From an uncultured Paraprevotella sp. (lineage in GTDB: Bacteria > Bacteroidota > Bacteroidia > Bacteroidales > Bacteroidaceae), in assembly GCA_900546665.1 (NCBI GenBank), contig URDY01000008.1:1-64000 (forward strand): a DNA stretch of 64,000 nt. The letters are read 5' to 3'. Below, in pieces: positions 2,790 to 20,807 of the stretch. Each line of letters starts with the position of its first letter. The stretch's first letter is position 1. The notes under the pieces were generated by a model. The model was not told the DNA's origin, did no database searches, and saw only the letters and a list, made by a program, of their open reading frames with translations. The translations under genes and the position numbers were made by a program.

Positions 2790-2957
2790 TCATTCATGAC
2801 GGATATCTTGAAACATTTTGGCCAGCAACCACAGGTCACGGGTATTTTCCACTTGTACCGTCACCTGTTCTGTCTGGTTGCTATCAGCAAAGGGATTCTC
2901 CACAAAATTGAGTAAAACAGACTCTTCACATTTTTCCAAAATACAATCTTTCTTCAT
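2790..2957 (-). CDS. 55-aa hypothetical protein downstream of sigma factor
   Basis: The frame is open from 2990, but the ATG at 2957 (MKKDCILEKCEESVLLNFV) gives a more natural soluble protein of 55 residues and is preferred. It lies 51 bp after the sigma-factor stop on the same strand and is probably cotranscribed. It has an acidic surface, two cysteines in the first ten residues, and no membrane segment, so it is not a classical membrane anti-sigma factor. I do not recognise the family. A small cytoplasmic regulator of the sigma factor is possible from position only. Confidence 0.5.
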   Translation of the reverse strand: MKKDCILEKCEESVLLNFVENPFADSNQTEQVTVQVENTRDLWLLAKMFQDIRHE

Positions 2958-3008
2958 ATCTGAAATATTAGTTCTATATATGATGAGCAAACTGTACCCT
3001 GAAAACTA

Positions 3009-3611
3009 TCATCTGCGCCGGATTTTCTTTCGTCCGTCACCAAAGTTATCCATAAACTGCAATATGGCCCGATGCTTGAGATTATAGACATTGGATACAG
3101 TTGTGCACAGTCGGCCAGCAACTTCCTCATAAGAAAAGCCTTCAATCAACAGCCAACGAAGCACATTGACATAAGTTGGATTCGGCATGGCCAAGAAAGT
3201 CTGTTCCACTTCCAAAGCTACCTCTACATCAAAATCATCCATACGGTCATCCTTCATCTTACCAATCTCTTTGCTGTCATCCATAGCCATTCCCAACAAA
3301 GCCCTCCGTCTTTGCAGAAAGAAACGCCAACTCAACGGTATCATCCATGAAGATAACCGGCAACCGTTCAAGCCGGCAAAGGTATCCAGCTTGTGCCAGT
3401 TACGGTCCGACAAATACACATAGAGTTCATTAACCACATCATCAAAATCCAATCTCCTCTCCAATAATGTCTTCCATATATCATGAAGGGTATAAGCGCA
3501 AAGCTCATAAAAGAACCGGTAAGTGATTTCCTGATCACCGGACTTCAACCCTCTGATATAATCAGCATCCGTCAGATGCTTTTTTCCGCCTGCATGTCGT
3601 GTTGTTTTCAT
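3009..3611 (-). CDS. ECF-like RNA polymerase sigma factor
   Basis: About 200 residues. The N-terminal half carries region 2-like sequence (ITYRFFYELCAYTLHDIW, then DFDDVVNELYVYL), and the C-terminal part carries a region 4 helix-turn-helix (YEEVAGRLCTTVSNVYNLKHR), where Val-Ser-Asn-Val-Tyr fits the recognition helix. The order and size fit a sigma-70 family ECF-type factor. The ATG at 3611 is chosen over the TTG at 3620. No FecR-like anti-sigma gene is adjacent; only a 55-aa gene follows. The start lies only about 10 bp after a strong leftward terminator hairpin, so the mRNA must either begin inside or upstream of that hairpin or arise by read-through. The targets are unknown. Confidence 0.75.
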   Translation of the reverse strand: MKTTRHAGGKKHLTDADYIRGLKSGDQEITYRFFYELCAYTLHDIWKTLLERRLDFDDVVNELYVYLSDRNWHKLDTFAGLNGCRLSSWMIPLSWRFFLQRRRALLGMAMDDSKEIGKMKDDRMDDFDVEVALEVEQTFLAMPNPTYVNVLRWLLIEGFSYEEVAGRLCTTVSNVYNLKHRAILQFMDNFGDGRKKIRRR

Positions 3612-3621
3612 ATCTGTCAAT

Positions 3622-3673
3622 AAAAAAGGTTACTTGTTTGTCCGTTAATGCAGTAACGGCAAAACAAGTAACC
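3622..3673 (-). terminator. rho-independent terminator of the propeller/LamG gene
   Basis: Perfect 12-bp arms (GGTTACTTGTTT at 3628-3639 and its complement at 3662-3673) enclose an inner CCGTTA/TAACGG stem. On the minus strand the hairpin is followed directly by a TTTTTTA run (3621-3627). It lies about 100 bp after the stop at 3775 and ends about 10 bp before the sigma-factor ATG. Confidence 0.85.
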
Positions 3674-3774
3674 CTCTCTGACTGATATTTTTTATAAGGC
3701 GGCATCACACATTCCATTCTCCTAATGAAATGCCGCTTCGGATCATATTATAGTGACAAACGGTTCTATCAGCC

Positions 3775-6700: not shown

Positions 6701-7839
6701 TCTATATATCCCAGATATGTCATATTGATACCGGCAGTTTCATCTTCATAATGTAAAGCACGCGGATCGGCAAACCAGCACCAGGCACCTTCTTCAGTCA
6801 CAGTCTCACCGGAATAGGGTTCTATGATTTCAGGCTCAGAATAAGGACGTTGAAGTTCTATGACTTCTTCTGCCGTCAATGCGATATCGTACAACTGAAA
6901 ATGATCCATGGTTCCACAGTAATCGATATTGCTTGAAGCGACACCGGAATCCCACCACTGTGTACGCCCAATGTAATTGCGTGAATCAGCACTGACCGTC
7001 GTAATTTCATAAGGCTCATGAGCTATATTCCCGCCAGTAGCAACCAGCGAGCCGTTGAGATAGATTTTTGTTTCCCTTGTTCCGGCATCGAATACAAAAG
7101 CCACATAGTTCTCTTCACCGACATTAAGCGAGCGGCCGGAATTGACCATCTGCGTCGTCCCATCATTAAATTTCATTCCGGCTGTAAATCCACTGGCACG
7201 GCCGAATACACTGTTACCCGCAGATGATCCGAAATCATACAAGCGTGGACTTCGATTAAGGTGTTCAGGTTTGACCATCATAAAGAACGTATAACTGCGG
7301 AGACTGTCTAATGTCCCTTCCGGAACAAGAACATAACCGTTTGTGGAAAAACCGGAAGCGGTATTCGAGGTCAGATCCAATACTCCTTCTGCTTTGGCAT
7401 TTCCCATTAGCCGCGCATCACGTTGGTTTCCACTTTTATCCTTAATGTAACGCACATCATCTTGCGTATAAACATCCTCTGATTCGAACTCATATTCCAA
7501 TACTTTGTTGGCTTGTATGTTCCGGGGTTCTACACTGACTTCAAATGTCCGGCTCACACCTTCTGCCGTAGCCGTCAGCCGGACCTCAGTAGTCTGCCGA
7601 GGCAAATTGACCAATCCACTGGATGCCAGAATATCTTCACGGTCTGATGTCCAGGATATGGATTTTCCTGACTCTGTCTTCGTCGGCAAAACGATATCCG
7701 TTACGACCGGATCAGGCACTACGATCTGATCCAACTCACTGTTGTCACGTGCTTCACCATTACCTGTCCAGGCATACAATGAGGTAAAGCAGACAACCCC
7801 CGACAATAATGCCGGAGTAATCCATCTTAATTTTTTCAT
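3775..7839 (-). CDS. secreted multidomain protein: Ig-like, LamG, BNR_4 beta-propeller, LamG, sorting-type tail
   Basis: 1354 residues with a signal peptide (MKKLRWITPALLSGVVCF). Order: atrophied bacterial Ig domain (about 33-108), LamG/concanavalin fold (112-335), a BNR_4-type propeller (345-760), a second LamG-like domain (770-935), a second Ig plus LamG pair (980-1265), then a type IX-like tail ending SSKLVIR. The two Ig-LamG pairs are close copies, sharing SPRLYDFGSS and NSVFGRAS, so the module was duplicated. The propeller has DDHDNPTFLVLPDKR and a later SRHTDE. Histidines in this setting occur in seven-bladed enzymes acting on Rha-GlcA linkages (ulvan lyases, GH145), so a polysaccharide lyase or hydrolase is plausible but unproven. 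LamG domains probably bind glycans. Confidence 0.8.
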   Translation of the reverse strand: MKKLRWITPALLSGVVCFTSLYAWTGNGEARDNSELDQIVVPDPVVTDIVLPTKTESGKSISWTSDREDILASSGLVNLPRQTTEVRLTATAEGVSRTFEVSVEPRNIQANKVLEYEFESEDVYTQDDVRYIKDKSGNQRDARLMGNAKAEGVLDLTSNTASGFSTNGYVLVPEGTLDSLRSYTFFMMVKPEHLNRSPRLYDFGSSAGNSVFGRASGFTAGMKFNDGTTQMVNSGRSLNVGEENYVAFVFDAGTRETKIYLNGSLVATGGNIAHEPYEITTVSADSRNYIGRTQWWDSGVASSNIDYCGTMDHFQLYDIALTAEEVIELQRPYSEPEIIEPYSGETVTEEGAWCWFADPRALHYEDETAGINMTYLGYIDTHGAIKAMQYDFNTMRQSEVLIRSYFQPDDHDNPTFLVLPDKRVMIFYSRHTDEACFYYRVSEKPGDITSLGEEKVIKTNHNTTYPSPFILSDDPDHIYLCWRGINWHPTIAQLSIPDENDDVTFTWGPYQMVQSTGARPYAKYLSNGKDKLYVTYTTGHPDNESPNFVYFNVVDVKTKTLQDVNGKVLSDIASGPFKVNKTASYVSSYPSTVVDNPSSERDWVWQVAEDKQGNPVIAMVRISSGKTSHDYYYAQWTGTAWKKTFLANGGGAFHQTPGLEMCYSGGMAIDPVRPNEIYCSVPVNGVYEIVKYVVGDDGKVTSAPYTSNSLKNNVRPYIVPGYEGEKPQVIWMYGEYYDWIVSESRPLGYCTAINRGFSFPSETVDTGDGLIVNETYNTAVSGTAQVKNGVLVVTDQTAADLSAGHLNTFSISLSPYLYAGSFGGTLLTFGDVSYTVNPQTLKPELMVGDRVWKSNNLLGNSDSWQTEDRGTGGVWFAPVKYGYFNLTLTYDNGVLTTYVNGLIDQKVEIDGLILDQCRIGGFNGWVEDTRIYDHALNQSEIVELTAVSRKYSLSDDLMAEAELASLFVPQVVVTDIILPAQTASGKPVTWVSDNPELLTAQGIVTFPDVATDVRLTATVSGKTRDFVVCVRPRDIMQNRILSYTFEAEDKYESDGQIYVRDKSGRGHDLKIMGRASVSGVLDLTDNTASGFATNGYGLAPAGILDSVRSYTFFMEVVPSHLNKSPRLYDFGSSSGNSVFGRASKLTAGVKYNGQATKMVDSPKSLTIGRSNKVAFVYDAGTKTTRIYLDGVQTVSGTAITQEVYQLAQLAKDGRNYIGRTQWWDTSEAGNNNDYCGTIDNFQMFNVALTADEIKELIIATTVETIEDKMTGNVFGLDRQVIGKGENITLYGDVRSENLKNLQVSLLDMSGRTVRRWMPSAFPVVLDGLSVTEGTYLVCVSSAGDRLWSSKLVIR

Positions 7840-7843
7840 GCTT

Positions 7844-7872
7844 TCTGTTTTTCGTAAATCTGTTTTTCGTAA
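7844..7872 (-). repeat. 14-bp direct repeat in the 5' leader
   Basis: TCTGTTTTTCGTAA occurs at 7844-7857 and again at 7859-7872 on the plus strand, a 15-bp period, between the promoter and the ATG of the propeller/LamG gene. It may be a slippage duplication or a paired binding site. Confidence 0.6.
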
Positions 7873-7889
7873 TAATGATTAAGTCAGGT

Positions 7890-7920
7890 CAAAAATAATT
7901 ATTTTTTATCTAATTACAAA
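7890..7920 (-). promoter_or_regulatory. Bacteroides-type promoter of the propeller/LamG gene
   Basis: Read on the minus strand: TTTG (7917-7920), 19-bp spacer, TATTTTTG (7890-7897), matching the Bacteroides -33 TTTG and -7 TAnnTTTG pattern. The predicted leader is about 45 nt. Confidence 0.7.
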
Positions 7921-8085
7921 ACAGTTAGTCACATACAGCCCTCTAAAATCAGAAGATTATGGTTGCCAGATAGCCGCATAGCGCATCAACACCATTCATT
8001 TCAGAAGCAAAATTCAGCCTGACAGTTCTCTCCTTTATCTGTCATCAGAACGACTTCATTATATTTCGCCCTGATTTGCCAGTAC

Positions 8086-8130
8086 AAAAAACGACCTGTT
8101 GCACTGCAGATTAATGGAGCAGGCAACAGG
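8086..8130 (-). terminator. rho-independent terminator after the Big2 protein gene
   Basis: CCTGTTGC (8095-8102) pairs with GCAACAGG (8123-8130), extended inward by CTGC/GCAG. On the minus strand a T6 run (8086-8091) follows closely. It lies about 90 bp after the stop at 8221. Confidence 0.75.
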
Positions 8131-8220
8131 CCATCTTCAATGACAGACTATCAGAAAAAGAAATATTTGTTTCGGGTTTGGCTGACATCCCGATCGCTTT
8201 AGCCGATAAATTCAATTCAT

Positions 8221-10038
8221 TCAATTAATCAGAATCTTTCGGCTTTGCCGACCAATTTTCATGATATAAATACCCGCCGGTAATCCTTCTACCTTATCCG
8301 TCGTTCCGGAATAGACTTGGATGCCATTAAGACGATACAGACTCAGTTTTACTGGCTCCTGGAAAACAACAGCGCCCGATTCTATCCGATAGGCATATTG
8401 GTCGGTGATTGCTGTCTCGACGTTTGTAGTGCCTTTCTTTGCCAACAGATCGTAATACAAAGCCTCAACACGGCCGTTTTTCCAGATTTCCTCATTTTCA
8501 TCCCACGTAAAAGCGACTACGTAAAAATCGCCTACCGAAATACTGCCATCATCGTTCATGGTCAGCATCCATTCGTCGTTCCAGTCATCGGCAGCCTCAT
8601 CCCATATATACAAGGCATAAAGCGGACTGTCATTATCCGTATATCTCAGGATATTATAATAAGACACATCTATTATGGCCTTCCCGTTGCCCAGGTCTTT
8701 CAACCGGAAACCACCTTCATTAAATTTCGTCAGGTCTTCACCCCAAAGGGATGTCATGACATAACCATCTTCCGACCGGCTGATGGTCATTTCAAAGTTG
8801 TCCGCATAATCCCGCGACGGTTCGGCTGCCACATGCCGGGAGTATACGGTATAAGTACCAGCCCAGTCCGTCTGCACGCCAACCTCTTGCGCCACAACCT
8901 TCACCTGACATACCGCAGCCAGATGATTGGAAGTGGTGGCAATAATATTGGCCTCTCCCTCGCTGACCGCCGTTACCAGCCCGTCAGCACTGACAGTAGC
9001 GACAGAAACGTTGTCACTCATCCAGGTCACCGTTTTATCGGAAGCCTCAACCGGACGGATGTCAGCAGTCAATTGCATAGTCTCCCCTTCTTCCAACGTA
9101 GCGTTTGAATGATCCAATGTAATGGAAACAGGCTGCACGTCTGCTTTTACAGTTACTACACACGTGGCATACTTGCCGCTCCCATCCACGGCACGACATG
9201 TTATCGTTGCCGTACCCGCAGAGTTGGCTGTCACCAGACCATAACTGGTCACCGTAGCCACGGAAGTATTGTCACTCGACCAGATCACGTTACGGTTGGT
9301 CGCATTGGTCGGATAGACACTGGCATTCAACTGCAAAGTCTCTCCTTCAGTCAACGTTTCGGAAGAACGGTCCAATGAAACAGAAGTTACATTGACAACC
9401 GACTGTTTCACCGTAACCCGGCAAGATGCATAACGGCCACTTCCGTCTGCAGCCTGACATACTATCGTTGCCGAACCGGCGGATTTGGCAGTCACAAGTC
9501 CATAGCCGGTCACCGTAGCCACGGAAGTATTGCTGCTCGACCAAGTCACGTTACGGTTAGTCGCATTGGTCGGATAAACACTGGCATTCAACTGCAAAGT
9601 CTCCCCTTCAGTCAGGGAAGCTGATGTCTTGTTCAACGACACACTGGTCACACTTACCGTTGATGATTTCACTGTAATGGTATAATAAAAATCCATCGTA
9701 CGATAGAAACCGTCAATAAAATAGCTGCAATAAAAATACACCCGACAGGAAGATGTTGGACTGATTCCCTTTATCGTAGCATAATTACGCGTTGAGCTAG
9801 TCACACTAACCAAAGATGTATTCTCTGAATACCATCTGTAAGTCACTCCGGTGGCTTTTTTCAATGTGTTCTGATAAGTGGCCGCCAGAGAAATGGTCGT
9901 AGTACTCCCTGTATAGACTGTTGCTTCACCGGCTTTGGCCGAAGCTAAGGCCGTCTGAATAGAGACAATCCATAAAATTGCCACCAACCAAAGTAACCGG
10001 ATTTTTTGTTCATGTTTTTGTAATACGTTCGCATTCAT
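8221..10038 (-). CDS. secreted protein with three Big2 (Ig-like) domains and sorting-type tail
   Basis: 605 residues with an N-terminal hydrophobic signal segment (about 13-33). A beta-rich domain (40-125) precedes three Big2 domains at about 128-211, 214-298 and 302-385. The first two are nearly identical, sharing EGETLQLNASVYPTNATNRN. A roughly 150-residue domain follows (400-550), and the C-terminus (LSLYRLNGIQVYSG ... GLPAGIYIMKIG) is a type IX-like sorting tail. Big2 domains usually act as stalks or adhesion modules; no catalytic domain was recognised. It sits 33 bp downstream of the YkvA gene and may be cotranscribed with it. A surface adhesin or glycan-contact protein is the best guess. 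Confidence 0.8.
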   Translation of the reverse strand: MNANVLQKHEQKIRLLWLVAILWIVSIQTALASAKAGEATVYTGSTTTISLAATYQNTLKKATGVTYRWYSENTSLVSVTSSTRNYATIKGISPTSSCRVYFYCSYFIDGFYRTMDFYYTITVKSSTVSVTSVSLNKTSASLTEGETLQLNASVYPTNATNRNVTWSSSNTSVATVTGYGLVTAKSAGSATIVCQAADGSGRYASCRVTVKQSVVNVTSVSLDRSSETLTEGETLQLNASVYPTNATNRNVIWSSDNTSVATVTSYGLVTANSAGTATITCRAVDGSGKYATCVVTVKADVQPVSITLDHSNATLEEGETMQLTADIRPVEASDKTVTWMSDNVSVATVSADGLVTAVSEGEANIIATTSNHLAAVCQVKVVAQEVGVQTDWAGTYTVYSRHVAAEPSRDYADNFEMTISRSEDGYVMTSLWGEDLTKFNEGGFRLKDLGNGKAIIDVSYYNILRYTDNDSPLYALYIWDEAADDWNDEWMLTMNDDGSISVGDFYVVAFTWDENEEIWKNGRVEALYYDLLAKKGTTNVETAITDQYAYRIESGAVVFQEPVKLSLYRLNGIQVYSGTTDKVEGLPAGIYIMKIGRQSRKILIN

Positions 10039-10071: not shown

Positions 10072-10461
10072 TTACTCCACCACCTCATACTCTGTCCCAA
10101 ACCAGCTGTCCAGCGTACTCTCGACTTTAGCGTTGATCTCCGGCGTGATCTTATCCTTTATCTTTCGATAGACATAAAGGACGGCCGCACCTTCATCCAG
10201 CACCCCCAACAACTTATAAATCGCACTCGGTATAAGGCTGACAGGCGAAACGGTATAAATAATAGCCGCATAAATCAGAACCCGCTCCAACGCCGTCGTA
10301 TGACTGTCATTCATCACATAATAGAACTGCAACAAAGGCCTGGCCGCCACCCGCCCGACTTTCAAGGCGTAAGGTTTCAGTTTATCCATCAGGTCATTGG
10401 CCTTACCGCGCCAGTCTGTTTCCTTCACTTGTTCCAACAAAGAACGAATATCCTTTCCCAT
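10072..10461 (-). CDS. YkvA family (DUF1232) membrane-associated protein
   Basis: The core ALERVLIYAAIIYTVSPVSL with LIPSAIYKLLGVLDEGAAVL is the DUF1232/YkvA signature, in which a hydrophobic helix carries a conserved SP-x-(D/S)-LIP motif. ATG 10461 (MGKDIRSLLEQV) is chosen; the frame extends to 10503 but adds only an odd hydrophobic leader. This gives about 129 residues. YkvA proteins are poorly understood; some are linked to membrane stress. Here it precedes the Big2 gene. Confidence 0.75.
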   Translation of the reverse strand: MGKDIRSLLEQVKETDWRGKANDLMDKLKPYALKVGRVAARPLLQFYYVMNDSHTTALERVLIYAAIIYTVSPVSLIPSAIYKLLGVLDEGAAVLYVYRKIKDKITPEINAKVESTLDSWFGTEYEVVE

Positions 10462-10591
10462 CATACAATAGACAAGTATTGTCACGCAAATCACTGTAAA
10501 CATAATCTTATTCTTTTTTATCGTTTACAATAAAGACTGGACTTTATGAGGTTTTCTATCATTAATAGTCCGTTAAAATTCAACATATCTG

Positions 10592-10954
10592 CTAAGCGGC
10601 TTCTGCCACTATGCCAAATAGTTCTTTGACAAGTTTAGTATTAAAAGTTCTGTTCGGTTTCAGACCGGACTTGCTAAAAAATCTTTTGAGCATGTAAATA
10701 TTACTCAGATAGGCCTTTAGCAGTCCGATGGAAAGCGAGGGATAGTATCGTTGCCGCATGACCTTTGCGGCGTTTACCGAGGCCAGTGAAGCATTGAAAG
10801 CGAAGTCGAGTTTCCTCAAGTCTCTTGCCTGACAATCGTTGAGTCCGGTAAACTGCTTGGAATCCCGAAAGCAAAACTTTTCTTTACGGATATAATCCTT
10901 CTGAGCTTCTTCTAATGCACGTAATGCATGTGCTAATAAATGACCAACTGACAT
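10592..10954 (-). pseudogene. C-terminal remnant of a transposase (IS4-like)
   Basis: The segment KQFTGLNDCQARDLRKLDF, followed by AFNASLASVNAAKV, resembles the C-terminal end of IS4-type DDE transposases, which often read QFTGL-x-x-CQAR-x-x-x-KL-x-FH-x-N. Here the conserved His is replaced by Ala and everything upstream of this end, including the DDE catalytic core, is missing. No inverted repeats were recognised. Conservation of the open frame over 120 codons means a short functional protein cannot be excluded. It marks the left edge of the AT-rich accessory block, next to the dynamin operon. Confidence 0.55.
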
Positions 10955-11092
10955 ATTCTATAATTTTTTATATTTAACTTTTAATTGTTTTCTTCGCTTC
11001 TAACATAAAGAGATAAATACAACATGGTTTCCATTCTAACACAGGTAATCATTAAAAAGGTAATGCAGAATGAAGGATTTTATTACTTCTGA

Positions 11093-12988
11093 CTATAATT
11101 GTGCTTCAACAATCACATTTTTGATTTCATTGTAATAAACAGATTCATCATTCCATTCGCGTTGCAATCGAGAAATATAGCTTTCTTTTTCCTTTTTATC
11201 CTGTTCAAGTTTCTGAATTGTATTCATATCTGGTTTAACGTAGTTGTGATACAATATATTCAATGTTTGCTGGATTTCCCGAAACTTGATTTCAACAGAT
11301 TCCTTAAATGGTTTTTCCATACTTTTCAATGCCTCGTCTTTTGCAGCATCAAACATCTTTCTTTTACGATTGCTATTTTTCATCCAAGCCGTTTCTGTTG
11401 CTGTTACTGCTACAGCTCTGTACATTGGATTTTTTATATTATCATAAACTACCACAGGATTATTTGAAAGAATACAGGAATTGAGATCAACCTCATTTTC
11501 AAATAATTCTTTCATTAAATAACGTTCAATAAAGTCTTCTACAAGTCTGGATATTTCTGAACTTACATTGTACAGCAATGGCTGTAATGTTTCTTGTAAA
11601 TATTGTAATGTAAGATTAACAAAAGGCGAAAGAGAATCGAGTCTGGCATATCTGCTATCTGACATTGATTTAAATACGTTTAATTTTAGAGCAAATATGT
11701 CTTTTTCCAATTTCATATAGTCTGTAAATCCAAAAGACACCTTATCCATTAATTGAAATGTGCAAGCATAGTTCCAATGGTTGTCGACTTCTTTAGAGTA
11801 TTTGCTAAACAAGTCTGGTAATAAACTATATATTGATTGTTCAAGGTTATCAAACAATGATTTCTTATAAGCCACTTTCTCTTTAAGCCTTTTTATATCT
11901 TCAGTAAATCTTTTTATATCACTTTCAAGCGTTTTAATTTTTGCGCTTATTTCACTTTCCCTATAGGATTTAACTGAAGCAATTTGTATACTTGCAGTTT
12001 CTAATTGTTTGTTTATAGCTCTTTTTTTAGCACTACTTACATTATCCTTAACATACTCACATATATCATTCAACAAAGGAGAAAAACCGCTACGAGATTG
12101 ATAATCTACATCTTCTCGCCAATTCTCGTGGTCAATAAAACCATTGGCAAAGTTCTGATAAAGAGCAGATACTTGATAAATACGTGCTATTGGATATTCA
12201 TCTCTACAACCTGTCTTATGCAAAATATCATCCAATTTCAATTTAACCAGATTTGTTAATTTTTCCCTATCACTTTTCTTTACCAGATCAATACGATTGA
12301 TACAAAAGAACAAGTCACCTCTTTCCAGATTCAAGTAAGTGGATATAAAATCAACGTCTTTGATAGATAATCCTCTTTCATCGCATACATATATCAAAGC
12401 AATGGCATCTTTCAAGGATGCTATAGTCTTCAGATTATCACTTTCATGTGAAGACAATCCTAATGTATCAATTATACATAAATTGTTCTCTTTAAGAAAA
12501 TCAGATTTAACATAAACCGTTGCATCTGTCACGTTTTTTAACCTTTGTATCTCACCAGTTTTCTCCCTTTCTCTGAAATCTTCTAAATTGAAGGCTGAAA
12601 AATCAAAAAATTCTTCGTAAGTCATTTCTATTTCGTCAATATTATTGTAATGTACAATAACCTTCGGCTTACGACCATATTTTATTTTCGTAATTATGGC
12701 TGTACTTGGATTAGCTGAAACTGGAACTATCTTCTTTCCGAGAATAGCATTAACAAACGAGCTCTTACCAACTGTAAAATCACCAATTAATCCTATTGTG
12801 AAGTCCTTACAATTCGCAGCTGAATAAACTTGATGAATTTCATCAATTATTGCTTTTATTTGAGTGCGAGAAGTTTCGCTTATTATGTTTGGAATATTTC
12901 GAGCAGTGTCCGCAATTGCTGAATCATCATATTGAGGTACATGTACACTCCCTAATATTCTATTGACAATATAACTAATAATACCCAT
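11093..12988 (-). CDS. dynamin-like GTPase (second of the operon)
   Basis: 631 residues from ATG 12988 (MGIISYIVNRILG); the upstream in-frame ATG at 13024 lies inside an intercistronic hairpin and is less likely. The GTPase domain is intact: P-loop GDFTVGKSS (about 69-77), a switch-I Thr in NPSTAII, G3 DTLG (173-176, Leu replacing the usual Pro) and G4 NRID (230-233). A coiled coil follows (about 320-385, SEISAKIKTLESDIKRF) and then a long helical stalk. No strong membrane helix is seen, although the N-terminus is hydrophobic. It is the last gene of the M48/dynamin operon and is AT-rich. It probably pairs with the upstream GTPase, as many bacterial dynamins work as tandem partners in membrane remodelling. 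Confidence 0.8.
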   Translation of the reverse strand: MGIISYIVNRILGSVHVPQYDDSAIADTARNIPNIISETSRTQIKAIIDEIHQVYSAANCKDFTIGLIGDFTVGKSSFVNAILGKKIVPVSANPSTAIITKIKYGRKPKVIVHYNNIDEIEMTYEEFFDFSAFNLEDFREREKTGEIQRLKNVTDATVYVKSDFLKENNLCIIDTLGLSSHESDNLKTIASLKDAIALIYVCDERGLSIKDVDFISTYLNLERGDLFFCINRIDLVKKSDREKLTNLVKLKLDDILHKTGCRDEYPIARIYQVSALYQNFANGFIDHENWREDVDYQSRSGFSPLLNDICEYVKDNVSSAKKRAINKQLETASIQIASVKSYRESEISAKIKTLESDIKRFTEDIKRLKEKVAYKKSLFDNLEQSIYSLLPDLFSKYSKEVDNHWNYACTFQLMDKVSFGFTDYMKLEKDIFALKLNVFKSMSDSRYARLDSLSPFVNLTLQYLQETLQPLLYNVSSEISRLVEDFIERYLMKELFENEVDLNSCILSNNPVVVYDNIKNPMYRAVAVTATETAWMKNSNRKRKMFDAAKDEALKSMEKPFKESVEIKFREIQQTLNILYHNYVKPDMNTIQKLEQDKKEKESYISRLQREWNDESVYYNEIKNVIVEAQL

Positions 12989-13001
12989 AATTTTAATATT
13001 G

Positions 13002-13033
13002 TTTCCAAGGAAGGCGCATGCCATCCTTGGAAA
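13002..13033 (-). other. intercistronic hairpin inside the dynamin operon
   Basis: TTTCCAAGGA (13002-13011) pairs perfectly with TCCTTGGAAA (13024-13033). It sits in the only sizeable gap of the operon (53 bp), just before the ATG of the last GTPase, with no T-run after it. It may set mRNA stability or the relative dose of the last gene. Confidence 0.6.
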
Positions 13034-13041
13034 ATATAAAT

Positions 13042-13557
13042 TTACAATAGAATTTTTCTTGCCATCTCACCATGTTTTTCCAATTGTTCATGATAGAAAT
13101 CCACAATTGAATCTTCATATTGACTTGATTTGGAAATAAATCTTGATTGAAAGGCCGTCCATACCAATACGGCAAATCCAATAGAGAACACAGACTTTCC
13201 CCAAAATTCCCATTCCGTAATCTGGTTTAAAACCAAATAGGTAACAGGAACAGATAATACCGTTAAAAAGAAAGACCACAACCTGTTAGGTTTTGAAACT
13301 TCTTTCTCTTTAAGTTGTAAACTATTTATATAATCTCTAAATGCCAATGCCTTGTCTGGTTCAGAATTTGCAAGTTCTTTAAACCATATAGATGGCGCCA
13401 ATTTACCATTAAACCATTCATTGCAAGCCTTTTTATAATCACGGCTTATTATGTCGTTGTCAAAAGACGGTCCTTTCATCTGTCTTCTGACAGATGAAAG
13501 AACTTCTTTTTCAATAGCAGTCCATCGTTTATTAAAATGATCTATATTATTATTCAT
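13042..13557 (-). CDS. small two-helix membrane protein of the dynamin operon
   Basis: 171 residues. An N-terminal soluble part of about 95 residues (NNNIDHFNKRWTAIEKEVL onward) is followed by two adjacent hydrophobic helices (about 95-115, SFFLTVLSVPVTYLVL, and 122-140, SVFSIGFAVLVWTAF) and a 30-residue charged tail. I do not recognise the family. It begins 1 bp after the stop codon of the first dynamin GTPase, so translation is probably coupled. A membrane anchor or effector partner for the two GTPases fits its place and shape. Confidence 0.7.
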   Translation of the reverse strand: MNNNIDHFNKRWTAIEKEVLSSVRRQMKGPSFDNDIISRDYKKACNEWFNGKLAPSIWFKELANSEPDKALAFRDYINSLQLKEKEVSKPNRLWSFFLTVLSVPVTYLVLNQITEWEFWGKSVFSIGFAVLVWTAFQSRFISKSSQYEDSIVDFYHEQLEKHGEMARKILL

Positions 13558-13558
13558 C

Positions 13559-15706
13559 TTAGAATTTTTTAAATTGATCTAAAGTCAGCTTCTTATCAAA
13601 AACCACAGAATATGCTTTGGTCGCTTCTTGATACATCTCATCCAGAATTCTGCCAAAACGCACTTTTTCTTCCTCCAAATTAGTATTGTGCTCGTGATAG
13701 AACTCTTCTATGTTTTTCATCCTTTTTTGTTCATCATCCAATTTTTGAAGGTTAATTGCACATTGCTTATCTTTTTCATTATTCATTTCCAGTGCGATTT
13801 TCCTGTTTAGAGAATCTTTCATCTCTTCTGTATTTTCTCTGATGGCTTTAACTATATCGTTTTTAGAGCTCTCAAGAACTTTCTTGACCGTCTCACTTTT
13901 ATTATTTCTACCTTGCAGATATTCTATTGCTATGGCTAACAACACGCCCAATCCTCCATCCACAAAAGATAATAAAACAATTTGCCAAACGGTATTAAAG
14001 ATGGTTTTCTTTAAATAATCTATCCAAGGGGCTTTTCCTTCCATTCCACCTTTAAGAACTGCACTAAAATCACCCAAATAAGCAGATATCATAATCTGCA
14101 GCCAATTTTTATTCTCGCTTGGATTGTTATTATCCGGATTGATCTTCAACAATTCCTTTGTAAGATCTTTAAACAAATCATCTGTTCTGTTCAAACTTAC
14201 GTTGAGGTGTTCCTGACATTCCTCCACGACAGCATCAACCACTACGCCATTTTCAGTGATATAGGTATCCACTCTATTAACAAAGTACTCCGTAACAACA
14301 TCAATGAATTTGGCAGTAAATCTTTTCATGCTTTCTTCCTTAGATGCTTTACTGGCAAGAGGATTAATCTGTTTTATACCTTGCCACATATAAGAAAAGG
14401 TACCAACATCGACTTTCTTTGCCAAGTCTTGCATGTCTTGTTCCCATGACCTGTCAATGTCGGTCACACATCCGCTCAATAAGTCTGCAACTGCATTTTG
14501 TATTTTCAAAGAGCAATTATCAAATGTAACCCGAGTAAGTTCTATACTACTTTTTATATCAGAAATGATTTTTTCACATTCTTCTTTTTTTTGATTATCC
14601 ATTTGGATCTCATTTTCATAGGCATAAAGATATTCTGAAATTTGTTTTTCAGCATTTCTATATGTGGATGCCATACGATGGAAACAATTCTGATATTGTG
14701 CCAGGCATCTTTCGTCTGTTGTCAGGAAGGTTTCCAGTTCCTGTTCGAATGGAGCAAACCAACTCTTTTCAAATTTACTTTTCCTTTGAGCATCATCCAA
14801 CTTCACTTCTATATCTTCTTCCCGATCGTAAGTCATACCTCGCCGAGAATCTAATGCCCGTAAGGCACTAAAACCAAACACGCGCCGATTAAGGAGTTCA
14901 TCGTTTACTTTTCCATCTTGGCCTTTAAATACAGGAGAAACTTCATCCTTCATTTTCTGCAACGCTGCGGATCTTTCATTGGCTTTAACAAGGTCAAACT
15001 TGTTTATACCAAAAAAGATATTATTAGGGCAATTCTTGAAGTTAGAATAAATATATTCTTTATCATTCTCTTCAAATCCCCTTTCTAGTGTCAAATAAAT
15101 GATGGCCTGCGCTTTTTGAGCTATACTCAGTGCCAGTTCTGTGGCTACGCCTTTGTCTTGCAATCCCGGAGAGTCAATAATACAGATACCGCCTTCTATC
15201 AAGGGTTTTGAACTATACATCACTGCATATTTCACCTTTGCAAAGCGTGGCACAGAACCTGTATCCTTATACATCTTTTCATCGGCTAATGTATATTGAT
15301 ATTCATTCTTAAACGTCTCTACGTCCATCTGAATACATTCACCCTTCTTTACACTACCATCGGCCTGATTTTCATCAGCCATATACACATCAACATGATT
15401 TTCATCCGTACCATATTGAATAAAAGTCAGGATAGCAGTACAGGGCAGAGCTGATTCCGGTAGCAGTTTTTCCCCGATTAATGCATTAATGAATGTACTT
15501 TTTCCACTGGTAAAAGTACCCATAACAACAATCTTAAACAAACCGTCATGAACAGCTTTTGCTTCTTCAATACATTGAGACTGTTCTACGCTCATCTCCA
15601 AACCTTTTATTCCACCTGCCAGACCAAGTTCGTTGCGGCCGACAAGCGCACCGATATTTGTAAGACTTGATACAAGTATCTGCTGTTTTTCTTTACTGTA
15701 TGCCAT
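13559..15706 (-). CDS. dynamin-like GTPase (first of the operon)
   Basis: 715 residues. The dynamin-type GTPase domain is complete: P-loop GTFTSGKST (63-71), switch-I Thr in LPCTAILT (about 87-94), G3 DSPG (178-181) and G4 NKFD (235-238). A long helical region follows, with a hydrophobic hairpin at about 568-600 (WQIVLLSFVDGGLGVLLAIA) in the position of the membrane-inserting paddle of bacterial dynamins. The C-terminus is helical and charged. It starts 4 bp after the stop of the GTPase-like gene and ends 1 bp before the two-helix membrane protein. Predicted role: GTP-driven membrane binding and remodelling from the cytoplasmic face. Codon use is AT-rich compared with the housekeeping genes of the window. 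Confidence 0.85.
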   Translation of the reverse strand: MAYSKEKQQILVSSLTNIGALVGRNELGLAGGIKGLEMSVEQSQCIEEAKAVHDGLFKIVVMGTFTSGKSTFINALIGEKLLPESALPCTAILTFIQYGTDENHVDVYMADENQADGSVKKGECIQMDVETFKNEYQYTLADEKMYKDTGSVPRFAKVKYAVMYSSKPLIEGGICIIDSPGLQDKGVATELALSIAQKAQAIIYLTLERGFEENDKEYIYSNFKNCPNNIFFGINKFDLVKANERSAALQKMKDEVSPVFKGQDGKVNDELLNRRVFGFSALRALDSRRGMTYDREEDIEVKLDDAQRKSKFEKSWFAPFEQELETFLTTDERCLAQYQNCFHRMASTYRNAEKQISEYLYAYENEIQMDNQKKEECEKIISDIKSSIELTRVTFDNCSLKIQNAVADLLSGCVTDIDRSWEQDMQDLAKKVDVGTFSYMWQGIKQINPLASKASKEESMKRFTAKFIDVVTEYFVNRVDTYITENGVVVDAVVEECQEHLNVSLNRTDDLFKDLTKELLKINPDNNNPSENKNWLQIMISAYLGDFSAVLKGGMEGKAPWIDYLKKTIFNTVWQIVLLSFVDGGLGVLLAIAIEYLQGRNNKSETVKKVLESSKNDIVKAIRENTEEMKDSLNRKIALEMNNEKDKQCAINLQKLDDEQKRMKNIEEFYHEHNTNLEEEKVRFGRILDEMYQEATKAYSVVFDKKLTLDQFKKF

Positions 15707-15710
15707 ATTT

Positions 15711-17363
15711 TTATGATATTAAAGTGTTTATTTTTTCAAGAATTTCTGAAGCCTTTTCTTTTTTTTCTGTTTCCTCATTTATTATTTGCTTAACGGAAGC
15801 AATCAGTTCGTCATAATAGTCCATTATCCCATCATGGAATTCTTTGGCGACAATGCTAAAACGCTTTTCCGCTTGAAGTAACAGTTCTTCTTTATTTTTA
15901 TCAATAATATCATCCACCTTCGCTTTTAACACCTCTTTATATTCGTTGTTCATGGCTTCATTATTTACTACTTTCATAACTTCAGAAGCAATCACAGCGA
16001 CCCATCCTAGAGGAGTAACAAATAAACCGGTTATGATACCTCCAATTGTCAGAGCATCCGTCACTCCATTACCAGCTACCGTTTTACGTGAAAAGAAAGT
16101 GTTAACACTGAACGAATTACCTAACTTTCTCTTTATTCTCTCTTGCATGTTCACGTCATTTATATTATGTATGAGATGCCCAAGATCAAGTCTCATCATT
16201 TCCATTAACATATAAGTTTCACGTTCAAACTCTTCAAGCAACATACTGTTTTGGTCTTCTGAAAATTGCGACCATATGGCAGATAGATACCTTGTTAAAG
16301 AACGAGCGTCTTGCCTGATATCTTCTGACATTGTAATATCCTCTTTAAGAGAATTTTTAAAAACCTTTGCAAAACCATCTACTGCATTTCTGTTTTTTGC
16401 CAAGAGAGGACTTTTCAGGAATAAATCAACATTATCCCCAATATGCTGTCTACTTTTAGCAATTATTTCTTCACGCTCTTTTATAGAAACCAGCATAGAC
16501 TCCCCTGAAGATAAATTACTCTCAATCTCTTTCTTAGTTTGTAACAATAGCTGTTCAAGCAACTGTGCCTTATAGTTGTCTAAGTCCTTTAGATGGGACA
16601 AACGCAAATCTAAAACACACTTCTGACTTTCACGAAGAAGACTTAAGATAGTCCGTTCATGACCAGAATATCTTAGCTTCATTTCTTGTGAGACATTTTC
16701 TGTGAAAATAGGAAAAGCTTCATAGTCTTCATTGATTAACATCTTGACACGCATAATAGCATCATGCCATTCAGACGATTTTATATATTGTGCATTCCCT
16801 ATTCCAAAAAGCAATCGCGATGACGAATAATAAGGGAGCACCAATGTATTAATAAAGTCTCTCTCTCTTGAATATAAAATATGACTTGCATTAAGGATGA
16901 ATAGGAGTTGGTCTGCCTCTAAAAGGTTGTAACGCCAGCTATCTGCATCTATTCTATTGTACTCTGGAACATAAATGATATGAAGCGAAATGTTTTTATA
17001 TAACTCTTCACGCCTCATGATGGAACACTCAACGTCTTTTGTACTCTTACCCAGGATCCCGGTTAAACCGTCTTTGTCAACCAACATCTCACCATATTCA
17101 GTCATGACAGTATAACTATCATCTCCATGCTGTATGGTTATCTTAATGACAATATCACTATTCAATGATATTAAGATGTGATAAAAATCGGACAAGATAG
17201 ACTCTACAACTTCCTTGTTCGTTGTGATGAGATATACTTTAGCCTCCTTATTCTGTTCTATATGTAATCCTTCTATAAGATTACTGATATCCATATATTG
17301 ATTCAAGCATAAATCTTCTGCCAATGACATTGCCATTTCTTTTGATATTTCTTTTCTTAACAT
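15711..17363 (-). CDS. degenerate GTPase-like (pseudo-dynamin) protein
   Basis: 550 residues. The layout mirrors a bacterial dynamin: an N-terminal alpha/beta domain, then long helical stalk (about 240-400), then a hydrophobic hairpin (about 435-465, ALTIGGIITGLFVTPLGWVA) and a charged helical tail. Nucleotide motifs are lost: the P-loop position reads LITTNKEVV without GKS/T, and where G4 should be the sequence is LLFGIGNAQYIK, lacking NKxD. LLEADQLLFILNAS matches the strand before G4 in true GTPases. I infer a catalytically dead partner subunit, but the relation rests on layout and weak similarity. It sits between the M48 gene (10 bp upstream) and the first active GTPase (4 bp downstream). 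Confidence 0.65.
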   Translation of the reverse strand: MLRKEISKEMAMSLAEDLCLNQYMDISNLIEGLHIEQNKEAKVYLITTNKEVVESILSDFYHILISLNSDIVIKITIQHGDDSYTVMTEYGEMLVDKDGLTGILGKSTKDVECSIMRREELYKNISLHIIYVPEYNRIDADSWRYNLLEADQLLFILNASHILYSRERDFINTLVLPYYSSSRLLFGIGNAQYIKSSEWHDAIMRVKMLINEDYEAFPIFTENVSQEMKLRYSGHERTILSLLRESQKCVLDLRLSHLKDLDNYKAQLLEQLLLQTKKEIESNLSSGESMLVSIKEREEIIAKSRQHIGDNVDLFLKSPLLAKNRNAVDGFAKVFKNSLKEDITMSEDIRQDARSLTRYLSAIWSQFSEDQNSMLLEEFERETYMLMEMMRLDLGHLIHNINDVNMQERIKRKLGNSFSVNTFFSRKTVAGNGVTDALTIGGIITGLFVTPLGWVAVIASEVMKVVNNEAMNNEYKEVLKAKVDDIIDKNKEELLLQAEKRFSIVAKEFHDGIMDYYDELIASVKQIINEETEKKEKASEILEKINTLIS

Positions 17364-17373
17364 ATGAGAAACT

Positions 17374-18297
17374 TTAGAGGATTTTCAGAATATTGTTAAC
17401 TTTATCTTTTAATACACTATCAGGCAAAAGACAGGCGTCTGGAGTTATTTCTTTCCCTGTAATGCGATAATACATCTCAGACTGGCTAAAATATTGCAAG
17501 GCTTTCAGTCTCTTTGGCGTGATGGGATGATCAAGAAGATATTCCTTTATGGCACCAAGCTTCATATTTTCGATATTCTCCAATGACTGCTCAATATAAG
17601 TGTCAAGATCAACATCAGACACATTTGCAAATGCACTTTCAAGTTTCATCAATGCCCTCTGAGCGACTTTTAAGTCACCACAACATAAAAAACCTGCTCT
17701 ATCTGCAGTAATTTCAGAATATCGCGACCATGTCTTTATGGGAAGATTCACCAGTTCCACAAGCATTGGACCAACAACGGGAAGTAATTTTCCAAGCTCA
17801 TTCAAACTTCTACCAATCAGATGATAAACAAGGTGTTCCATGGCGAGATGTCCACATTCATGACCGATTATAAATGTGAGCTCTTCTTTTGTTAATAGAT
17901 GGGTAGCCAGATCACTTATCAACAAATATGGGGTATCAACTGTTCCTGAAGCATACGCATTTATTCCTGGCATTCTTGAGGATACGACAGCATGAGGAAT
18001 TTTAATTCCCAAAGTTTTACAGCAATGATTTAGGATTTCACTTATTTCCGGGAAATTATTGTCGTCTATAACGATTCCACTACTTATCTCTATTCCATTA
18101 AGGTAGCTCACAAGCAAATCTGCAAGTTTGTTGATCGCATTTTGAACATGCGTCGCGTCTAAAGCCTTAATAATGGTTGAATCTATTTCATGTGCGAACT
18201 CAAGTCGTTTGCAATATAGACTTCCTTTGTTGTCCCGTTCCTCTTTAATAAATTCTGATAAAGAAGGATAAGTCCTATTATTATATCTAAAATTCAT
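17374..18297 (-). CDS. M48 family zinc metallopeptidase heading the dynamin operon
   Basis: 307 residues. The zinc site is intact: HECGH at 146-150 in TFIIGHECGHLAMEH, and the third ligand Glu195 in SEITADRAG. Upstream the MPGINAYASG segment fits the M48 substrate-strand region (compare N-A-x-A-x-G). A moderately hydrophobic stretch (about 166-185) follows the active site, as in membrane M48 enzymes, but there is no signal peptide or strong N-terminal helix, so a cytoplasmic or inner-face enzyme is likely. It is the first gene of the tight leftward operon. In mitochondria the M48 protease OMA1 cleaves the dynamin OPA1, so regulation of the GTPases by proteolysis is an attractive inference. 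Confidence 0.85.
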   Translation of the reverse strand: MNFRYNNRTYPSLSEFIKEERDNKGSLYCKRLEFAHEIDSTIIKALDATHVQNAINKLADLLVSYLNGIEISSGIVIDDNNFPEISEILNHCCKTLGIKIPHAVVSSRMPGINAYASGTVDTPYLLISDLATHLLTKEELTFIIGHECGHLAMEHLVYHLIGRSLNELGKLLPVVGPMLVELVNLPIKTWSRYSEITADRAGFLCCGDLKVAQRALMKLESAFANVSDVDLDTYIEQSLENIENMKLGAIKEYLLDHPITPKRLKALQYFSQSEMYYRITGKEITPDACLLPDSVLKDKVNNILKIL

Positions 18298-18906
18298 TTT
18301 ATTAATATTTATTTCTTATGTTAATACTACTACATTTAAGAAAAGTGTAAAAAATAACATTCTACTTTCCTATCCCTATTTTAGCAAAACATCAAGCTAC
18401 ACAATAATTTAAAAATTTTATCTATAGTTTGAGATATAAGATTTTTAGTATCATTTACATCCATTTTATTAATTCACACCTATACGTTATTCACCATAGT
18501 CTTCAAGCAAATTGTAGATTTTTATCTAAATAACCTTCAACTTCATCACCTATTATATTGAACACAATCTCCTTGCCCAATATCCTTCAACATATCATTT
18601 ATATTATTAGCAAGGAAATATTCACTCAGAGCTCTCAATATATTCAAAAAGTTAACAACAATATTGATATACAAAAATCCGACTACCATTCCCTTTAATT
18701 CGTCCATTACACCAATTATATCAAAAGAATTTCTTGAACTCCATTTACACTCAGCTTTCAGCTATACAATCAATTGCTATATGTGCAATTTGTCACTAGC
18801 AACAGGACCTGAAAACTCCACACAAATTTATTATATAATATTTTCATTTGCATTCCGAATTATGATAAATATCTCCTTATCAGATAAGAAATAACGAAGG
18901 ATTCTT
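18298..18906. other. AT-rich gene-poor spacer upstream of the dynamin operon
   Basis: About 610 bp of very AT-rich sequence. It presumably contains the operon promoter, but no clear -33/-7 pair was found. A 76-codon plus-strand frame at 18664-18894 has no support. The composition fits transferred DNA. Confidence 0.5.
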
Positions 18907-19224
18907 TTAGGGTCTCATCTCTGTAACTCTGAACTTCAATAAGCTCTTCAATAGCCGAACGCCCCTACCAACCATATCATCTGACAGAAGATAACGTTCT
19001 AAAACCTCCTTATTCAGAAGGTTCTCACTTATTACTCCTCCAATGACATTTGCGGTACGTCCTAATTCTTTTGGTATAACACCTTGATTAAAAAAGGCAT
19101 GAAGACTCAATACATATTTTGTTTTATGCAAACGAAACAACATTCGTATAGCAATATCATTGGCAATGTAACCAATAAGCGCCCCTAATAAGGAAATCAT
19201 TATATATGATATATCAATATTCAT
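18907..19224 (-). CDS. short DUF445-like membrane protein, probably truncated
   Basis: 105 residues. The opening ISYIMISLLGALIGYIANDI followed by AIRMLFRLH, then GVIPKELGRTANVIGGVISENLL, matches the N-terminal signature of DUF445 membrane proteins (G-A-x-I-G-Y-x-T-N-x-x-A-I-x-M-L-F-R-P, then G-x-I-P-K). Family members are normally 200-400 residues; this one ends after about 105, so it is a naturally short form or a truncated gene. It has one N-terminal membrane helix. Function unknown. It lies in the AT-rich block, 610 bp upstream of the M48 gene and on the same strand. Confidence 0.65.
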   Translation of the reverse strand: MNIDISYIMISLLGALIGYIANDIAIRMLFRLHKTKYVLSLHAFFNQGVIPKELGRTANVIGGVISENLLNKEVLERYLLSDDMVGRGVRLLKSLLKFRVTEMRP

Positions 19225-19521
19225 TTCTTAATTTATTTATTAATTAACGCCACTCAGAACCTACATTAAAAGTTTTCACTCTAATAACATTAAAAAAATA
19301 ATAAGTTTGCTTCCATACAAAAATATTAAAAAAGGAATTAAATCACAACACTTACACAATTTTTTTTATTTAAAACCAGGAAAATATGATTTTATTTTTA
19401 AGTAACTCTTAATAGATAATATTAATACATAAAATATCAATATTTAAGATTTAAACAGAAAAAACAATATTTCCTGATAAAACAATCCTAATTTAAATTA
19501 TATTTTTAATATACAGTGCAT
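19225..19521. other. AT-rich spacer without a recognisable gene
   Basis: Nearly 300 bp of extremely AT-rich sequence with long A/T runs and no supported ORF or hairpin. It must supply the promoter for the short DUF445 gene. Confidence 0.4.
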
Positions 19522-19782
19522 TTAACAACAATCCAGAGGGAAGAAATACAAATTCCATTCATCGTATTCAAAACACATCTTATGCGATAATTTTATCAGT
19601 TTACAAGCAAATCTATGCACACATCGCCAAAAATTTTCCACTTTTATATTCATCGGAACATATTCAGAAGATCCAAATATATTTTTAGAAATAACACAAC
19701 AAATATACTCATAATATAGTAAATGACAAATTGACATACAAAATGTACTCCACCCCAGCTCTAATTTTTGCTTCATCATCAT
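19522..19782 (-). CDS. doubtful 86-aa cysteine-rich ORF overlapping the WG-repeat gene
   Basis: Three ATG codons in a row (19782-19774) directly follow the WG-repeat gene; the first ATG overlaps its TGA by one base (TGATG), a geometry typical of coupled translation. The product would be rich in Cys, Phe, Tyr and Trp, ending FFPLDCC, with a weak hydrophobic segment near the start. I do not recognise it, and its unusual composition is also what random AT-rich sequence would give. Confidence 0.3.
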   Translation of the reverse strand: MMMKQKLELGWSTFCMSICHLLYYEYICCVISKNIFGSSEYVPMNIKVENFWRCVHRFACKLIKLSHKMCFEYDEWNLYFFPLDCC

Positions 19783-20807
19783 CAATCACAAAAAACCTCT
19801 TTACCTTCACCATCCAACAACATCCATTGATCGGAATCAGGCAATCTCACTTCAAACAAACCTGAAGACAACAAATTCACCTCTTCATAAATAGCAGGAA
19901 TAACCACTTTGTTATCTGAGCTGCGGATGACACCGCAACAATTATAAATATCATATCTAAGATAACCGGAAAGCTGCAACTTCATGTCTCCTTCATCCGT
20001 ATAACCGGACTGATATTCCATACGGCAAAAGTTATCAGCCAAAAACGGACGAATCACGGTACCATCATAATCGGATTGCCATTTATGACCGTCTTTACTT
20101 AGATAGACACCATGAGGGGCAAATTCGATGTAATCATATTTAATAGGAAAGAGGAACTGCAGACCGTCACCTAGCAGACCATACTGATCATTATCCTTCA
20201 CAATACGGTACTTTTTCTCATGAGGAGCCCATATACAATCATATTTTGGAGCCACCACCCATTTTCCAGAATGATCTATAAGACCGCATGCACCCCGTTT
20301 GTCAGTCATCGTACAATAACCGTCACGGAAAAGATAGTCTATTGCCAGTCCGTCGCGATCAGCATAATCATATTGAAAAGGCAATACGACTTCATTCCGA
20401 ACATTGATAAAACCTATCTTACCACCTTTCATCACGGCAGCCAGACCTTCTGAGAACACCCACGCACGTTCATATTGGGCTGGTATCACTTCCAAACCGG
20501 TATTGGCATTGGCAAAACCACGTTTGCCATCCTTACAAAAAACAACCAGGGAATCATTTTCTGCACAACAAGATACCCAACTCAAACCTTTAAGAGTATA
20601 ACGGTCTGTATTAGCATTATAAAGACGATATTCATTACGATTAGGGAAATAATGCTCTTTTATCGCCCCCTTAAATTCATACGTTGTATAATGGTAGTTT
20701 TTCTCTTGCCAGATTTCATAACCCACTCCACAGCAAACAAACAAAGTACCCAAGCCTGCGAAAACGACACAAGTACGCCATAACATTTTCAAAATTTTCC
20801 TTATCAT
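19782..20807 (-). CDS. WG-repeat protein with N-terminal membrane anchor
   Basis: 341 residues. A basic start and hydrophobic helix (about 12-29, TCVVFAGLGTLFVCCGVGY) are followed by repeated units of the WG type: KRGFANANTGLEVIPAQYER, KIGFINVRNEVVLPFQYDYA, ACGLIDHSGKWVVAPKYDCI, and a later KVVIPAIYEEV. WG repeats form beta-propeller-like or solenoid structures of unknown binding function and are common in Bacteroidetes. The two cysteines at the end of the helix (FVCCG) could suit a lipoprotein, but the box is not typical. It is transcribed away from the small heat-shock gene and may be coupled to a tiny ORF. Confidence 0.8.
   Translation of the reverse strand: MIRKILKMLWRTCVVFAGLGTLFVCCGVGYEIWQEKNYHYTTYEFKGAIKEHYFPNRNEYRLYNANTDRYTLKGLSWVSCCAENDSLVVFCKDGKRGFANANTGLEVIPAQYERAWVFSEGLAAVMKGGKIGFINVRNEVVLPFQYDYADRDGLAIDYLFRDGYCTMTDKRGACGLIDHSGKWVVAPKYDCIWAPHEKKYRIVKDNDQYGLLGDGLQFLFPIKYDYIEFAPHGVYLSKDGHKWQSDYDGTVIRPFLADNFCRMEYQSGYTDEGDMKLQLSGYLRYDIYNCCGVIRSSDNKVVIPAIYEEVNLLSSGLFEVRLPDSDQWMLLDGEGKEVFCD

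Follow-up and report, generated by a model that had tools for sequence, protein, structure and literature searches.

The stretch analysed here comprises 64,000 nucleotides of contig URDY01000008.1 from an uncultured Paraprevotella sp. (hereafter the window), and its minus strand carries at 11093-18297 a block of five genes that seems to encode a genuine membrane machine, rare and so far undescribed. In order of transcription, the genes encode an M48 zinc metallopeptidase (M48), a protein of predicted dynamin fold that has lost the GTP motifs (pseudo-dynamin), a dynamin-like GTPase with a putative membrane hairpin (dynamin-like protein A, DLP-A), a protein with two hydrophobic helices (TM2) and a second dynamin-like GTPase (DLP-B). 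An earlier reading made from the letters alone (the sequence-only reading) had proposed five leftward genes separated by 10, 4, 1 and 53 bp. All five open reading frames (ORFs) are present on the minus strand, and the families assigned to them, M48, dynamin-like GTPases, a motif-less GTPase-like protein and a two-helix protein, were right. The gap of 53 bp requires that DLP-B starts at the 13th codon (ATG at 12988), the longer listed start giving 17 bp, and the later start was favoured because of the alignment with three relatives. The features of the block are as follows.

17374..18297, minus strand: M48 zinc metallopeptidase, first gene, 307 aa (Pfam Peptidase_M48, PF01435, 1.1e-23)
17848..17862, minus strand: HECGH zinc-binding motif of M48, residues 146-150 (alignment numbering)
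15711..17363, minus strand: pseudo-dynamin, 550 aa, predicted dynamin-like fold, GTP motifs lost (motif scan and model)
15990..16046, minus strand: hydrophobic stretch of the pseudo-dynamin, residues 440-458 (Kyte-Doolittle scan; region conserved)
13559..15706, minus strand: DLP-A, dynamin-like GTPase with putative membrane hairpin, 715 aa (Dynamin_N, 5.2e-21)
13925..13981, minus strand: hydrophobic stretch of DLP-A, residues 576-594 (mean hydropathy 2.42)
13042..13557, minus strand: TM2, 171 aa, helical, two hydrophobic helices, no known family
11093..12988, minus strand: DLP-B, second dynamin-like GTPase, 631 aa from the conserved start (longest ORF to 13024)

When one genome per species was scanned by a pattern-based method with a pseudo-dynamin profile, three loci emerged, all in Prevotella metagenome-assembled genomes (L001, SUG549; L002, HAN019; L003, RGIG4438 from roe-deer omasum). 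The sequence-only reading had staked its idea of a system on finding the five genes together elsewhere. The results showed that all three loci contain all five genes in the order M48, pseudo-dynamin, DLP-A, TM2 and DLP-B (4/4 with the window), and because the same genes stand in the same order in the three relatives, the block is a conserved unit; chance neighbourhood was rejected on the same gene order in all four loci. A chance estimate for the adjacency of M48 and dynamin genes was given no weight, being rough and in part circular (G002 and G003 were known beforehand, and the query alignment includes the G165 dynamin). Among the five genes, conservation in these relatives is highest for M48 (77-78%, against 39-60% for the others) and lowest for TM2 (39-44%), and M48 precedes the pseudo-dynamin by 6-11 bp in every one of the four loci. 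In a protein database, the longest contig of eight of the 26 close pseudo-dynamin clusters equals that of an M48 cluster in length, a hint that the two genes lie together.

The unit is rare. It was found in two of 398 genomes of the genus (G002 and G003), one of them the centre of the sample, and the orthologous M48 in one of 395 genomes of a phylum sample, again the centre itself. Around the distant M48s of the phylum sample (seven genomes and a second M48 of G002), blastp gave no relatives of the remaining operon genes, a test that would miss a divergent dynamin such as that of locus L083 described below. No copy of the operon was detected in the phage, plasmid and viral-contig collections searched, the viral-contig scans being made with the pseudo-dynamin and M48 profiles. 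Plasmid matches to M48 (26 records, the best 20 listed) were distant, with 25-31% identity; no annotated dynamin was seen in the three plasmid M48 neighbourhoods viewed (Tsukamurella, Thermus and Rhodococcus), and Pfam named no dynamin among seven proteins from plasmid neighbourhoods, four of which gave nothing or nothing informative.

The block had also been called AT-rich, and it has 34.7% GC compared to 42.5% for window positions 1-10000 plus 21001-64000. The blocks of L002 and L003 are likewise AT-rich relative to their flanks, but that of L001 is not (43.8% against 45.0% GC). Of the proposal that the operon is a transferred, self-contained module, the conserved unit stands and recent transfer was not borne out: the rarity and the AT-richness would agree with it, but the L001 block is an exception to the latter and no block was located on a mobile element.

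The catalytic residues of M48 that had been pointed out, HECGH and Glu195, are both invariant across a 36-row alignment. HECGH is present in 120/120 and the distal SExxxDR pattern in 118/120 of the M48 homologues listed (148 found), and the protein, with its HExxH motif and distal Glu, belongs to peptidase family M48. A hydropathy scan revealed a single weak hydrophobic stretch, and the protein was read as soluble. The identity of a housekeeping HtpX was rejected, the best NCBIfam equivalog scoring 44.9 bits against a cut-off of 341.

Pfam returned nothing meaningful for the 550-aa pseudo-dynamin. A pattern scan showed that the P-loop, the DxPG/DxLG motif and the NKxD-type motif are absent from all 26 close homologues, in agreement with the description of a GTPase-like protein without GTP motifs. 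The predicted model (pLDDT, the predicted local distance difference test score, 79.8) had its best Foldseek and VIA matches in the dynamin family, the best Foldseek match being the entry of the Campylobacter Cj-DLP pair, and the protein is thus predicted to have a dynamin fold. A sequence search of the PDB gave no match. With PADLOC, the C-terminal half of the window protein partially matched LeoBC (8.7e-8), and the L003 pseudo-dynamin had no Leo match at E<=0.01.

Both DLP-A and DLP-B matched Dynamin_N (5.2e-21 and 6.9e-21, respectively), and motifs G1-G4, which the sequence-only reading had noted in DLP-A, are kept in all four orthologues of each; the two proteins are thus bacterial dynamin-like proteins by domain and motifs. 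The hydropathy scan showed a strong hydrophobic stretch at residues 576-594 of DLP-A, a putative membrane hairpin, and no such hairpin in DLP-B. Their best PDB sequence match is the Nostoc protein BDLP (DLP-A 1.1e-26, entry 2j68; DLP-B 8e-14). PADLOC gave partial matches of DLP-B to LeoA (5.5e-14) and of DLP-A to LeoA (3.1e-11) and LeoBC (3.3e-9). These models presumably correspond to the defence labels 'Eleo' and 'Dynamins'; 'Eleo' is termed a dynamin-like defence system in a passage of PMC11811056. In L001, a partial second copy resembling DLP-A lies in two frames between TM2 and DLP-B (L001:8525-9819).

TM2 was confirmed as a two-helix protein by its two hydrophobic stretches and an all-helical model (pLDDT 85.2). 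No match was found in Pfam, NCBIfam or PADLOC, the model resembled no PDB fold at E<=0.001, and only seven homologues were found. The TM2 gene contains a strong inverted repeat of 15 bp (13470-13503). Its reading as a regulatory hairpin was rejected, since the corresponding place in L001-L003 does not fold likewise.

Dynamins were then surveyed across the genus with a query alignment that contains the dynamin of genome G165. A match at E<=1e-10 was present in 24 of the 398 genomes, and the neighbourhoods were opened in 23 of them (all but G064). An M48 shares an operon with the dynamin in three of the 23 (G002, G003 and G165). The G165 operon (L083:9117-18624) carries on one strand a dynamin, a HerA-like ATPase, a WYL regulator, a homologue of JukA and an M48, and its dynamin matches DLP-B of L002 at 1.8e-11. 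C39-like genes are present in eight of the 20 other dynamin stretches, directly beside the dynamin in five (L131, L132, L133, L137 and L140) and one gene from it in L126 and L129, the eighth being L142. The Cys, His and Asp are invariant in the nine rows of the C39-like family alignment. Stronger matches of the family profile, located in its C-terminal end, are to a ryanodine-receptor domain and were taken to stem from one row, L086. The L083 operon and the C39-like genes in 8/20 other dynamin neighbourhoods are why dynamin-plus-peptidase operons may be a recurrent theme in Prevotella, with the operon described here as one stable form.

The same survey gave further layouts, with GTPase triads counted by P-loop pattern and ORFs called by a crude caller that missed the L048 dynamin ORF and the L094 M48. 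Three P-loop genes stand in a row or nearly so, by pattern only, in L126, L134, L136, L141, L143 and L145. In two of these, L134:4668-10812 and L136:4892-11191, the first and second of three P-loop GTPase genes are separated by a gene of 128 or 131 aa, in what looks like another three-GTPase layout. In L140:3314-4939 and L142:3669-5252, the P-loop of the second dynamin of a pair is altered and does not fit the GK[ST] pattern, a further sign of degenerate GTPase partners. A HerA-like gene is found in four dynamin stretches, L127, L128, L135 and L138, of which L135 and L138 are near-copies whose dynamin matches have no P-loop. L127:8758-15880 and L128:8860-17999 are dynamin plus HerA-like operons, L128 with a WYL-type gene and a gene of HExxH pattern as well. 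Outside the genus, a weak pseudo-dynamin match (1.8e-4) fell in L045 on a protein that also matches dynamin.

The five-gene composition was not described among the open-licence PubMed Central (PMC) matches listed, nor in PADLOC models, and the statement that no named system has it held within these sources; the keyword 'dynamin' is absent from two surveys of conflict systems (PMC7159879 and PMC8195603). PADLOC gave nothing for M48, TM2 or DUF445. What is new here is the five-gene make-up; operons of bacterial dynamins are already known. The operon resembles LeoABC of Escherichia coli in that dynamin-like genes are neighbours, that a membrane segment is present in one of the partners, and that PADLOC partially matched both DLPs and the C-terminal half of the pseudo-dynamin to Leo models. 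According to passages of PMC4159319, Leo consists of two DLPs, one of them split into LeoC and LeoB, whereas in the operon two GTPase DLPs are accompanied by a third dynamin devoid of GTP motifs, a protein with two predicted transmembrane (TM) helices and an M48. LeoABC/Eleo is LeoA beside LeoBC with no further obligate genes, and the composition of five genes in 4/4 loci sets the operon outside it. The Campylobacter Cj-DLP1/DLP2 pair and Nostoc BDLP are of the same family as DLP-A and DLP-B but, unlike the operon, come with no M48, TM2 or dead third dynamin. Bacillus DynA is alike as a bacterial dynamin that guards the membrane and delays lysis (extract of PMC8844932), but it is one fused two-dynamin protein (passage of PMC6104087), and no protease or dead dynamin partner is reported for it in the passages cited.

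Bacterial dynamins usually occur in pairs, and their control is poorly understood. Our preferred interpretation, to which we give a probability of about 0.38, is that the operon encodes a hetero-oligomeric dynamin machine of the inner membrane that would be switched by M48 proteolysis, in the manner of OMA1-OPA1 and not as a member of that system. We infer that the five products would work as a single machine at the inner membrane, on its cytoplasmic face, in which DLP-A, with its putative hairpin, and DLP-B, without one, would make a heterotypic pair, the pseudo-dynamin would co-assemble as a third, non-hydrolysing subunit, and TM2 would anchor or nucleate the assembly. By analogy with the action of OMA1 on OPA1, M48 might switch the assembly by cleaving a partner under envelope stress, and the benefit might be an inner membrane held or resealed under attack by phage lysis, pore-forming toxins or antibiotics. 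This interpretation is preferred because the five-gene order is the same in 4/4 loci, the M48 motif is kept and M48 is the most conserved gene; because DLP-A and DLP-B differ in the putative hairpin and there are precedents; and because M48 and a dynamin share the L083 operon and C39-like genes lie near other dynamins. As to the precedents, passages of PMC6104087 describe DLP pairs as making heterotypic membrane-tethering assemblies and heterotypic pairs as the rule for bacterial DLPs, an extract of PMC8844932 reports that DynA protects the membranes of phage-infected cells and helps against lysis, and part of PMC8027119 describes cleavage of the dynamin OPA1 by the M48 protease OMA1 under stress. 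The likeness to OMA1-OPA1 lies in the coupling of an M48 protease to dynamin-family GTPases; it would be an analogy only, the organism being another and the operon dynamins being more similar to BDLP/mitofusin-type proteins than to a processed OPA1. An operon of this make-up renders two questions testable together, namely what a pseudo-dynamin subunit is for and whether bacterial dynamins are switched by proteolysis as in mitochondria.

Several observations weigh against this interpretation. The other 20 Prevotella dynamin stretches contain no M48 by profile, and neither do 13 dynamin neighbourhoods outside the genus from the phylum sample, which also have no TM2. OMA1 is membrane-bound, whereas the operon M48 has no clear TM helices. 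Profile-profile comparison of the pseudo-dynamin with the DLPs was not significant. As for the C39-like genes, the class is weak, given by a match to the putative C39-like peptidase 3erv at E 0.0033; the genes of L131, L132 and L137 are close kin (88-89% alike), and that of L142 lies about 6 kb from the dynamins.

A close rival, possible though on balance doubtful in our view, is that the operon is a phage-defence cassette, in which the dynamin assembly would sense or block phage membrane events and M48 would be an effector that cuts host or phage proteins. The operon would then be one cargo of a polymorphic Prevotella family with shared heads (NusG-like, sigma-like plus zinc-finger-like, WYL) and peptidases. 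The evidence for this comes from the wider M48 family. A match to M48 at E<=1e-20 was present in 21 of the 398 genomes of the genus, and neighbourhoods were opened in 16 of the 21 (leaving out G036, G038, G082, G222 and G318). In seven of 15 stretches (L083, L084, L085, L089, L091, L092 and L094), the M48 stands directly beside a homologue of the L083 JukA, itself identified as JukA by PADLOC on the L083 copy only (5.9e-59). The Juk system is described in passages of PMC13282480; that related Prevotella M48s adjoin JukA homologues, once with a dynamin (L083), is the likeness of the operon to it. In L083, dynamin, HerA-like ATPase, WYL, JukA and M48 are joined on one strand, and in L019 and L087 M48s lie near TIR, STAND or Hsp70 genes. 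L003 connects the operon to such heads: upstream of it are a sigma-like gene, a zinc-finger-like gene and two more M48s, with overlaps of 4-8 bp in the run of three M48s, the sigma-like and zinc-finger-like matches falling below Pfam cut-offs. The heads of L081 and L082 consist of NusG-like, sigma-like, zinc-finger-like, M48a and M48b genes, all of which but the NusG-like one recur in L003, and lead to other cargo (in L082, kinase, VWA and PP2C genes). The partial LeoA/LeoBC matches also fit a defence cassette. On the other side, the tree showed that the four operon M48s form one clade well apart from the JukA-linked clade, and because the clades are separate, the link of the operon to JukA-type M48s is indirect. 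The operon contains no JukA, TIR or nuclease by Pfam and PADLOC; Juk is marked by the JukA sensor gene, for which no match was found among eight window proteins scanned with PADLOC. No defence family was named among the flanking window genes scanned (13 by Pfam, three by PADLOC), and no copy turned up on the phages, plasmids or viral contigs searched. The sequence-only reading had raised a defence role, which is thus suggestive only: the partial Leo matches and the distant relatives of M48 and DLP-B in defence-type Prevotella operons speak for it, and the flanks and the mobile-element searches against it. Through indirect association only, phage defence is plausible. A further, unlikely reading is that Prevotella holds a polymorphic class of peptidase-coupled multi-dynamin operons (M48; C39-like; JukA/M48/HerA), in which a protease activated by infection or stress would switch a three-subunit dynamin assembly with a subunit dedicated to being catalytically dead, a defence-linked bacterial counterpart of OMA1-OPA1. 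The Prevotella pattern of dynamins near M48 or C39-like genes, HerA-like genes, JukA and shared heads points to uncharacterised membrane-guarding loci in gut bacteria.

Vesicle release or envelope shaping in the manner of LeoABC, without a part in defence and with an M48 that only matures or turns over the dynamins, is less likely than the defence cassette and, in our estimate, quite improbable. The DLPs do partly match the LeoA/LeoBC models, and deletion of leoA or leoB halves vesicle cargo (extract of PMC4159319); however, the composition differs by M48, TM2 and two dynamins that are not of the Leo set, and occurrence in 2/398 genomes is ill-suited to a core envelope function. We hold it just as improbable that M48 is an independent quality-control protease merely sharing a promoter with the dynamins. 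Broad-family M48s do occur in many unrelated contexts, but this one adjoins the pseudo-dynamin at 6-11 bp in all four loci, is the most conserved gene of the five and falls well short of HtpX (44.9 bits, cut-off 341). Compared with these alternatives, the protease-switched inner-membrane machine remains the interpretation that we prefer.

The block had been placed between a transposase remnant and gene-poor spacers. The remnant was borne out, whereas the upstream spacer proved to be a decayed DUF445 gene.

18384..19224, minus strand: decayed DUF445 gene upstream of M48 (PF04286, 1.4e-11 on the N-terminal piece)
10592..10954, minus strand: transposase remnant, downstream neighbour outside the system (match to annotated plasmid genes)

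After the N-terminal piece of DUF445, further pieces continue in shifting frames to about 18384, the last of them weak (E 0.026-0.039). An intact DUF445 gene stands before M48 in L001 (130 bp away) and L002 (17 bp away; PF04286 was run on this copy), and no DUF445 match was found in L003. The 120-aa downstream ORF matches transposase-annotated genes on Bacteroidales plasmids at 45-50% (H29, H31 and H33), although Pfam named no transposase in it. Promoter-like sites in 10500-19800 were at chance level (44 against 43.3).

Further genes were seen around the related loci. Among the M48 neighbourhoods, L019:1667-12000 (contig 80 of G002) has an M48 with a zinc ribbon at the head of a long run of TIR-domain genes, and in L087:3462-14725 genes for a STAND NTPase, a TIR plus SIR2-like protein and an Hsp70-TIR-WG fusion are close to an M48. 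The JukA-adjacent M48s of L084, L085, L089, L091, L092 and L094 are possible protease-type partners of JukA. After DLP-B, L003 has a 502-aa gene that overlaps DLP-B by 4 bp (L003:16294-17802; TerB-like by eye only), and L002 a 458-aa gene with a weak SprT-like match (L002:16341-17717). Downstream of the operon in the window is a DUF1232 gene (10072-10503), and L003 carries a counterpart with 32% identity about 3 kb downstream of its own operon.

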